From contig NZ_CP010311.1 of NCBI RefSeq assembly GCF_000827125.1, forward strand, positions 1,488,001 through 1,552,000: DNA of 64,000 bases, read 5' to 3'. Position 1 is the stretch's first letter. Every line of letters begins with the position of its first letter. Positions 36,175 through 56,044 of this stretch are shown here, piece by piece. The notes beneath the pieces were generated by a model that was given only the letters and a program-made list of their open reading frames with translations, did not search any database and was not told the DNA's origin. Made by a program: the position numbers and the translations under genes. Source of the DNA: Geoalkalibacter subterraneus (GTDB taxonomy: Bacteria; Desulfobacterota; Desulfuromonadia; Desulfuromonadales; Geoalkalibacteraceae).

Positions 36175-36564
36175 ATGGATATCGAACAGATCAGAAGCGG
36201 GCAGGCGCCGGCCGCTATCGGCCCCTATTCACAGGGGGTGAAGGTCGGCGGTTTTTTCTTTTTTTCCGGACAGATTCCCCTTGATCCCGCCAGCGGCGAG
36301 CTGGTCGAGGGCGGCATCGAGGCGCAGACCGAACAGGTGATGGCCAACATGAAGGCTCTGCTGGCCGCCGCCGGGCTCGATTTCAGCCGGGTGGTCAAAA
36401 CGACCATCTATCTGACCGATTTGAGTCAGTTCGGGATCGTCAACGAGATTTATGGCAAATACTTCACCGGGGTCGCCCCGGCCCGCGCTACGGTTCAGGT
36501 TGCGGCGCTGCCGAAAGGGGCGCAGGTTGAAATCGAATGGGTGGCGTGCACCGGAGGGGAGTAG
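36175..36564 (+). CDS. ridA: RidA family reactive-intermediate deaminase
   Basis: RidA hydrolyses reactive enamines and imines formed by PLP enzymes. The 129 residues contain QAPAAIGPYSQGVKVGG near the start, the conserved Arg in APARATVQVAALPKGA and the C-terminal VEIEWVA. AGGAGG lies 7 bases before the ATG. It is convergent with rpmB, with a large compound palindrome between them. Confidence 0.95.
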   Translation: MDIEQIRSGQAPAAIGPYSQGVKVGGFFFFSGQIPLDPASGELVEGGIEAQTEQVMANMKALLAAAGLDFSRVVKTTIYLTDLSQFGIVNEIYGKYFTGVAPARATVQVAALPKGAQVEIEWVACTGGE

Positions 36565-36603
36565 GGCAGAGGGAATAATCGCCGAAAAGATAAAGGGGAG
36601 CGC

Positions 36604-36720
36604 AAGTGTCCGGCATGGGGTCGCAACTCCCATGACAAGGGACACTTTTCGCCATCCATGGCCGTTTGATTGGCGCCATCCCTGGCGCCAAACACCCATG
36701 TCATGGGAGCTGCGACCCCA
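36604..36720. repeat. Compound palindromic intergenic element, copy 1
   Basis: The outer arms at 36616-36636 and 36700-36720 are complementary at 20 of 21 positions (left arm reads TGGGGTCGCA then ACTCCCATGAC). Inside are two small hairpins: GCCATCCATGGC (36651-36662), and TTGGCGCC with GGCGCCAA around ATCCCT (36670-36691). A second, competing pairing exists between AAGTGTCC (36605-36612) and GGACACTT (36641-36648). The element lies between the convergent genes ridA and rpmB. A related copy sits at 55881-56007. Confidence 0.85.
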
Positions 36721-36756
36721 CACAACGGGATGAATAGATACAAAGAAGAACGACAA

Positions 36757-36788
36757 AAAGGGCGGCTCCTGTTCGGGAACCGCCCTTT
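36757..36788. terminator. Bidirectional intrinsic terminator between ridA and rpmB
   Basis: AAAGGGCGG pairs with CCGCCCTTT, with an inner TCC/GGA stem. A-rich and T-rich flanks occur on both sides, so it can serve both convergent transcripts. It is best placed for rpmB, whose stop is 32 bases away. Confidence 0.75.
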
Positions 36789-36819
36789 CCGCATCAATCG
36801 TCAGCGGGGGGAAAAGCGC

Positions 36820-37011
36820 CTAGATGGCTTTTTTCACCGCGCCCGCACGGATACACCGGGTGCAGACCTTGATGGTGCGAACGGTGCCGTTCTGGATCGC
36901 TTTGACCTTCTGCAGGTTGGGGTACCAGGTTTTGCGGGTTTTGTTATGAGCATGACTGACATTATTGCCGGTCGAAGGTTTTTTGCCGCATACCTCACAT
37001 ACTTTTGCCAT
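36820..37011 (-). CDS. rpmB: 50S ribosomal protein L28 (cysteine-containing form)
   Basis: L28 is a small 23S rRNA-binding protein. The 63 residues begin [20 protein letters not shown] and include [10 protein letters not shown]. Two CxxC pairs (CEVC and CTRC) make this the zinc-binding C+ form, not the cysteine-free form. AGGAGG lies just before the ATG on the minus strand. Confidence 0.96.
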
Positions 37012-37044
37012 GGGAACTGACCTCCTGAAATTTTAGAACGTAAG

Positions 37045-37073
37045 TAACTATCACGATTTCGTGTTGATTGCAA
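37045..37073 (-). promoter_or_regulatory. Promoter of rpmB with a palindrome in the spacer
   Basis: Read on the minus strand, TTGCAA (37073-37068) and TAGTTA (37050-37045) are 17 bases apart. The spacer contains the palindrome CACGA-TT-TCGTG (37052-37063), which could be an operator. The start would lie about 27 bases before the codon. Confidence 0.55.
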
Positions 37074-37127
37074 GGACTCATTTGGCGCGCGACCACCAGG
37101 GCGGAGCAGTTCCAGAGCAGAAAGGGG

Positions 37128-55880: not shown

Positions 55881-56007
55881 TGTCCGTGGGGGCGCGACAA
55901 AGCATTCCCCATGCAAAGGACCGCATGAACCCATCCCTGGGGCTTGATTGTCGCCGTCCTGGCGACAAACATCCTTTGCATGGGGAATGCTTTGCCGCGC
56001 TGCGACC
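55881..56007. repeat. Compound palindromic intergenic element, copy 2
   Basis: The outer arms at 55898-55920 and 55972-55994 are complementary at 23 of 23 positions (left arm CAAAGCATTCC then CCATGCAAAGGA), extended by GCGCG/CGCGC. Inside are CCCATCCCTGGG (55930-55941), and TTGTCGCC with GGCGACAA around GTCCT (55948-55968). The order and the inner sequences match copy 1 at 36604-36720, while the outer arms differ but stay paired. It lies between the convergent genes lrgB and the PxxKW gene. Confidence 0.85.
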
Positions 56008-56044
56008 TGTCTTGCGATTTTAGTTTTGGGTACAATTGGAGCAC

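Follow-up and report, generated by a model that had tools for sequence, protein, structure and literature searches.

An IS66-ended miniature element carrying a structured RNA module: a candidate transposon-spread CsrA decoy in Geoalkalibacter subterraneus

Between the convergent genes for a Rid-family protein (ridA) and ribosomal protein L28 (rpmB) of Geoalkalibacter subterraneus lies a compound palindrome, and the question raised by this locus is what kind of element it is and whether the cell makes use of it. The window analysed here is a stretch of 64,000 nucleotides (C1:1488001-1552000) of the 3.7-Mb genome (G000).

A compound palindrome and its relatives

Inspection of the locus bore out the convergent neighbours, the long arms and the two small hairpins described by the initial annotation, and also the CATCC that it had read in the loops, which is the plus-strand text of what reads ANGGAN on the minus strand. 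The extent of 36604-36720 originally given captures the palindrome, but the full element with its tips is longer (Table 1); the match of model R1 to this copy covers 36602-36736 on the minus strand at 146.4 bits. A separate ordinary terminator had been noted as well and is present behind rpmB. As this is the sole terminator-like site in 36500-37100, where a promoter-like site was not found either, the reading of the element as an intrinsic terminator, i.e. a stem followed by a T run, was rejected.

Table 1. Features of the window copy and of its relative downstream, in window coordinates.
Feature	Positions	Strand	Basis
Whole element, class I copy	36602-36741	minus (strand whose RNA displays the ANGGAN loops)	40-copy alignment
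Left tip GCAAGTGTCCGGC, IS66-type; family consensus GTAACTGTTCAGC	36602-36614		copy alignment, IS66 comparison
Right tip ATGAATAGATAC; family consensus GTGAATAGATAC	36730-36741		copy alignment, IS66 comparison
Left target-site flank, decayed	36594-36601		4/8 identical to 36742-36749
Right target-site flank, decayed	36742-36749		4/8 identical to 36594-36601
Outer stem arm 1	36617-36641		25 modelled pairs with 36695-36719; covariation over 40 copies
Outer stem arm 2	36695-36719		covariation over 40 copies
Hairpin 1, GCC-AUGGAU-GGC (minus strand)	36651-36662	minus	folding, loop columns
Hairpin 2, loop AGGGAU (minus strand)	36668-36693	minus	folding, loop columns
rpmB terminator, outside the element	36753-36792	minus	between rpmB and the 5' end of the element on its RNA strand
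Second window copy, diverged class II, without IS66-type tips by eye	55881-56013	minus	R1, 83.6 bits

Searching the genome at the DNA level yielded 40 scored copies from 76 candidates, whereas the covariance model marked 67 places (45 above 115 bits, 17 at 61-93 bits and 5 weaker), counted after 49 of its 116 matches had been left out as second-strand matches on the same palindromes. Five of the 45 strong copies are absent from the 40-row alignment used below. The 22 lower-scoring places comprise 11 copies of class II and 11 of class I, the latter decayed or truncated; both classes were assigned with a simple expression. The relative announced 19 kb downstream of the locus does exist, although it belongs to the diverged subfamily, class II, with different arms. 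ARAGORN calls a tRNA-Ser(gga) at 55902-55988 on the minus strand; since this call lies wholly within the class II copy and is missing from the Rfam gathering scan, we take it as false. Elsewhere in the genome, at C1:1936596-1936887 (L022:1297-1588), a class I copy adjoins a class II copy on the opposite strand. The competing pairing of AAGTGTCC with GGACACTT, which the initial annotation had set against the outer stem, is complete in the window copy (8/8 pairs) but not conserved: over the 40 copies it reaches 8 pairs in this one, 7 in 8 and at most 6 in 31, and it was rejected as a family feature.

The further copies on which the initial annotation had made its dispersed repeat depend thus occur in this genome and also beyond it. 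With at most 24 candidates scored per genome, R1 at E ≤ 1e-5 matched 43 of the order's 136 genomes and 28 of its 84 good-quality ones, and match numbers in single genomes, second-strand ones included, reached 99 (G001) and 74 (G032). A pattern scan of named genomes returned at least 119 stretches, of which 80 are listed; among the matches listed are Desulfuromonadales, other deltaproteobacterial records, Marinobacter, Idiomarina, Stenotrophomonas, Halomonas, Vreelandella, Marinobacterium, Yersinia and Pantoea. Applied to 43 loci from among these matches at E ≤ 0.1, R1 gave 63 matches, again with second-strand ones included. Five gammaproteobacterial loci (L234, L244, L261, L268 and L317) hold copies paired on opposite strands at distances of some tens of bases, and in eight loci (L226, L228, L238, L240, L253, L303, L309 and L321) the same short insert, starting with CCCAAC, stands directly behind the loop of hairpin 1. 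Phage carriage was rejected: the five viral-contig pattern matches share one near-identical stretch without matching arms and were taken as chance.

Transposon ends and a folded core

IS66-family elements are marked by GTAA tips and 8-bp target duplications. The consensus ends of the repeat read GTAACTGTTCAGC and, from the other strand, GTATCTATTCACC. Comparison of the 8-base flanks of the 40 copies revealed 171 of 320 positions to be identical, against 89 expected for re-paired flanks (z 9.7), and the register of the duplication is exact, as all 8 positions are raised and the next positions on either side are not. Duplications of 8 bp were likewise found in G001 (169/248 vs. 70 expected) and G032 (165/200 vs. 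72 expected), the count in other genomes covering two-tipped copies only (31/41, 25/29 and 53/122), with some of the 53 representing chance tips in gammaproteobacterial matches. A possible source of the jumps is found in the same genome, where a 1728-bp element (L058:1331-3058) has GTAACTATTCTGC and GTAACTATTCAGC as its ends, matching the tips of the repeat, and encodes an IS66-family transposase (NF033517, 290.7 bits); its flanks are identical at 3/8 positions by eye, and no similarity was found between its sequence and the interior of the repeat. An element of 1723 bp in G104 (L353) carries the same tips with at most one change, its flanks agreeing at 6/8 positions by eye. Across six genomes bearing the repeat, IS66 partners were absent from three, while G001 has a fragment, G032 a tipless one and G104 two, one of them tipped. 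Judged by its ends and flanks, the repeat is a miniature inverted-repeat transposable element (MITE) with IS66-type tips and 8-bp target duplications.

Folding of 36590-36780 gave -88.5 kcal/mol for the minus strand (z -5.87) and a z of -5.27 for the plus strand, with 0/200 shuffles as good in either case. The modelled minus-strand structure comprises 37 pairs, of which 25 form the outer stem that encloses the two hairpins with ANGGAN loops (9 pairs in hairpin 2 and 3 in hairpin 1). Over the 40 copies, 97.9% of the pairing cells are paired, compared with 32-49% when partners are slid by 1-3 columns. Both sides have changed in 18 of the 37 pairs, 17 of them among the 25 of the outer stem, and 64 double-change cells were observed vs. 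12 in shuffles; none of 500 shuffles reached the observed value on any of the five measures used. As relatedness alone may beat such shuffles, the strand bias of G-U over A-C cells matters: on the minus (ANGGAN) strand it amounts to 32:5 in the 40 copies, and to 22:5 without the largest contributor (P 0.0015). A cruder arm alignment, which skipped copies unfit to the core expression (16/56 of class I, 9/41 in G001, 1/29 in G032 and 9/12 others), gave G-U:A-C ratios of 94:40 for G001, 93:41 for G032, 73:24 for gammaproteobacterial copies and 6:0 for other relatives; class I of this genome stood at 53:37, which is not significant (P 0.11), and its class II showed no bias (9:10). The arms of class II vary from copy to copy, yet each copy pairs with itself. 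By covariation together with the strand bias of its G-U pairs, the repeat is an RNA element as well as a MITE.

ANGGAN loops and the proposed role in CsrA control

The target of RsmE is described in PMC7652899, in the part of that paper dealing with it, as an ANGGAN hexaloop with variable N positions. Both loops keep their A, G, G and A columns at 0.97-1.00 over the 40 copies, while the four N columns stand at 0.93, 0.88, 0.82 and 0.55, so that, as in the CsrA/RsmE consensus, A and GGA are fixed and N is free. The loop of hairpin 1 reads A-N-GGA-N in nearly all model matches where the hairpin was found, in a survey that required pairing hairpins and left 16/266 sequences without a hairpin pair. 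Its stem differs among these matches: class I shares GCC/GGC with G001, G032 has GUC/GAC, and most class II copies have CCC/GGG; the named loci, which are uninformative on loop conservation as they were picked by a pattern fixing A-N-GGA-N, add the stems UAC/GUA and CAC/GUG. In four class II copies, the loop of hairpin 2 has five bases, AGGAC or AGGAG. The genome encodes a single csrA (83.5 bits), beside fliW and flagellar genes, and its product has leucine 4 and an arginine at the place of R44 by eye. According to a hand tally from the survey tables, csrA occurs in 22/28 good-quality genomes with the element vs. 27/56 others (Fisher P 0.0099, uncorrected for kinship, and drafts may lack csrA); in 6 of these 28 genomes csrA was not found.

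Our main reading, to which we assign a probability of roughly 0.7, is that the element is an IS66-ended MITE which bears a structured RNA module, spreads it and forms a transposon-spread candidate CsrA decoy. An IS66-family transposase would have made the jumps; the genome still contains one full-length element with matching ends. A transcript running through a copy would display two CsrA sites on one RNA, which a single CsrA dimer could grip twice. The outer stem would serve to hold the hairpin pair, tolerating nearly any sequence provided that it is paired. The sequence itself establishes mobility, the strand, the structure, its constraint and the loop type; transcription, CsrA binding and decoy action are what we infer here. 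The decoy is preferred because dozens of copies, each presenting two fixed loops, amount to a dose: every copy would act as a decoy for CsrA, which the 45 strong ones could jointly titrate as CsrB or RsmZ do. The window copy counts against it, as no promoter-like site lies nearby and the rpmB terminator stands in between, so that its expression would need read-through of this terminator or an unseen promoter. Also against the decoy are the scarcity of full IS66 partners, the 6 good-quality genomes that have the element but no csrA match, the random orientation of the MITE copies, the G-U ratios of this genome that are insignificant for class I in the cruder alignment and unbiased for class II, and the absence of gathering-score matches to TwoAYGGAY among 18 named relatives. 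If CsrA binds, transposition spreads sites for a global RNA-binding regulator, and the natural stem variants would provide a ready mutational series for the needs of stem and loop. We regard as conceivable, though doubtful, the wider proposal of a transposition-built, genome-wide CsrA sponge, in which dozens of IS66-mobilised decoys per genome would be maintained by selection and would set the level of free CsrA in FliW-type bacteria, YPAL and TwoAYGGAY being other branches of the same mobile riboregulator.

Alternatively, the copies could tie the fate of their host transcripts to CsrA, a local effect that we consider almost as probable as the decoy. More generally, the element might act in cis on the transcript that contains it, as a 3' stability element, an RNase III site or by CsrA-gated stability, with any effect on the CsrA pool irrelevant, which we consider a tentative option worth keeping in view. 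The copies sit near gene ends, gammaproteobacterial ones lie 27 with and 6 against the upstream gene, and YPAL is reported with upstream genes in the available part of PMC2229807, all of which fits an action in cis. It is opposed by the MITE copies of three genomes, whose RNA strand shows no preference as to the direction of the upstream gene (62 codirectional and 53 opposed, by gene calls from a codon-usage script that missed rpmB beside the window copy); an orientation rule for MITE copies was looked for and not found. In class II of this genome, moreover, the gene on the 3' side of the RNA lies on the other strand in 10/11 copies, 2-56 bp away in 9/10; class II copies are thus found behind gene ends in antisense.

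Random orientation, together with tips and duplications that are genuine and 11 class I copies that are decayed or truncated, would also suit an ordinary IS66-type MITE that serves no function in the cell and whose interior is passive cargo. We consider this improbable, since the stems covary and the interior has not decayed with the ends: identity to the consensus over the 40 copies is 0.957 in the hairpin core vs. 0.727 in the tips, although these copies, chosen by similarity to one copy, are biased toward good cores. The tips decay in step with the target duplications (rho 0.65, P 5e-6), whereas tip decay is unmatched by core identity (rho -0.01) or pairing (rho -0.07), and the 8 copies with tips at 0.36 still have a core of 0.954 and a pairing of 0.99. 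That most copies are undecayed, though decayed ones exist, we read as purifying selection on the RNA, and a core kept near-constant where the ends have decayed suggests that the cell makes use of the folded RNA.

Slightly less probable still is that the constraint acts on DNA, through a cruciform, a protein-binding palindrome or chromosome organisation. Long perfect palindromes can form cruciforms in principle and class II lacks the G-U bias, but G-U exceeds A-C on one strand in most sets, and the asymmetric ANGGAN loops are found on just this G-U-favoured strand. Gene conversion between copies, which 45 similar copies in one genome would permit, is a very unlikely source of the uniform core, given that stems differ among copies yet pair within each and that conversion should carry the tips along, but the tips decay. 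Finally, a REP/REPIN moved by RAYT, suggested by palindromic, intergenic, many-copy repeats and by 26 matches to Y1 transposase genes in the genome, was rejected owing to the exact 8-bp duplications, which come with IS66-type tips, as to our knowledge REP/REPINs make no exact duplication at the target; of the dispersed repeat that the initial annotation had called REP/MITE-like or an RNA element, only the REP part has fallen away.

Comparison with known systems

CsrB/CsrC and RsmX/Y/Z are encoded by few dedicated genes with many sites each. The candidate decoy would work like them in presenting GGA in hairpin loops as paired sites, and differs in its dozens of copies with two sites each and in that an own promoter was not seen. 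To IS66-family MITEs it is linked by GTAA tips and 8-bp duplications, and set apart by an interior that is constrained and has no similarity to the full element.

Among RNA families, TwoAYGGAY (RF01731, Cis-reg) likewise places two A-N-GGA-N hairpins within one outer stem. It aligns end to end and on the same strand in 7/20 loci at E ≤ 10; L085 (G005) reaches 50.9 bits against a cut-off of 43, and the six others score 27.7-38.5 bits. The window copy, at 27.7 of 43 bits, lies below the gathering score, and scanning the window at that threshold gave no match. A survey of the 136 genomes gave matches at E ≤ 0.001 in 7 and a score above the cut-off in 1; none matched at gathering score among the 18 named relatives, a set in which 13 are gammaproteobacterial or carry that label. 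Rfam matches to miRNA families were far below their cut-offs and were rejected as attributable to the palindrome. In the passages concerned, TwoAYGGAY is listed from human gut, gammaproteobacteria and Clostridiales (PMC2864571) and, like the reverse complement of Bacillaceae-1, predicted to bind CsrA (PMC4333381); these passages mention no mobility, in contrast to the many-copy mobile RNA described here.

The printed RU-2/YPAL unit, as given in the relevant section of PMC2759123, presents AAGGAU and AUGGAU loops within a long stem, and folding of this sequence and comparison by eye revealed the same two-hairpin architecture. In a nucleotide comparison covering L260, L293 and L325, the RU-2 sequence printed there was 84-85% identical to L260 from Yersinia pekkanenii over 147 positions and to L325 over 166 positions. 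On the opposite strand to the ANGGAN strand of the YPAL-like copy, Rfam reports Ysr224, a Yersinia sRNA, at L260:3294-3400 (minus, 95.7 bits); the palindrome may have misled the strand call, or the other strand may be the one seen in that work. The available text of PMC2229807 reports YPAL as recently mobile, found with upstream genes and making duplications of 3-26 bp, and YPAL is listed without terminal inverted repeats. The two share the form of a small intergenic mobile repeat with a long stem and two ANGGAN-type hairpins, and differ in the IS66-type tips and 8-bp duplications found here. A link between YPAL and CsrA was not found in the literature searched, which covered few subscription journals; CsrA and miniature inverted repeats occur together in two papers, one of them PMC4383904, which in the portion available discusses MITEs for plant miRNAs.

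The best reading of the element is that of a new variant of the TwoAYGGAY/YPAL kind. It would connect the CsrA network with bacterial MITEs and with the orphan RNA TwoAYGGAY, three subjects kept apart in the literature found, and, if true, the YPAL repeats of Yersinia would gain a testable function.
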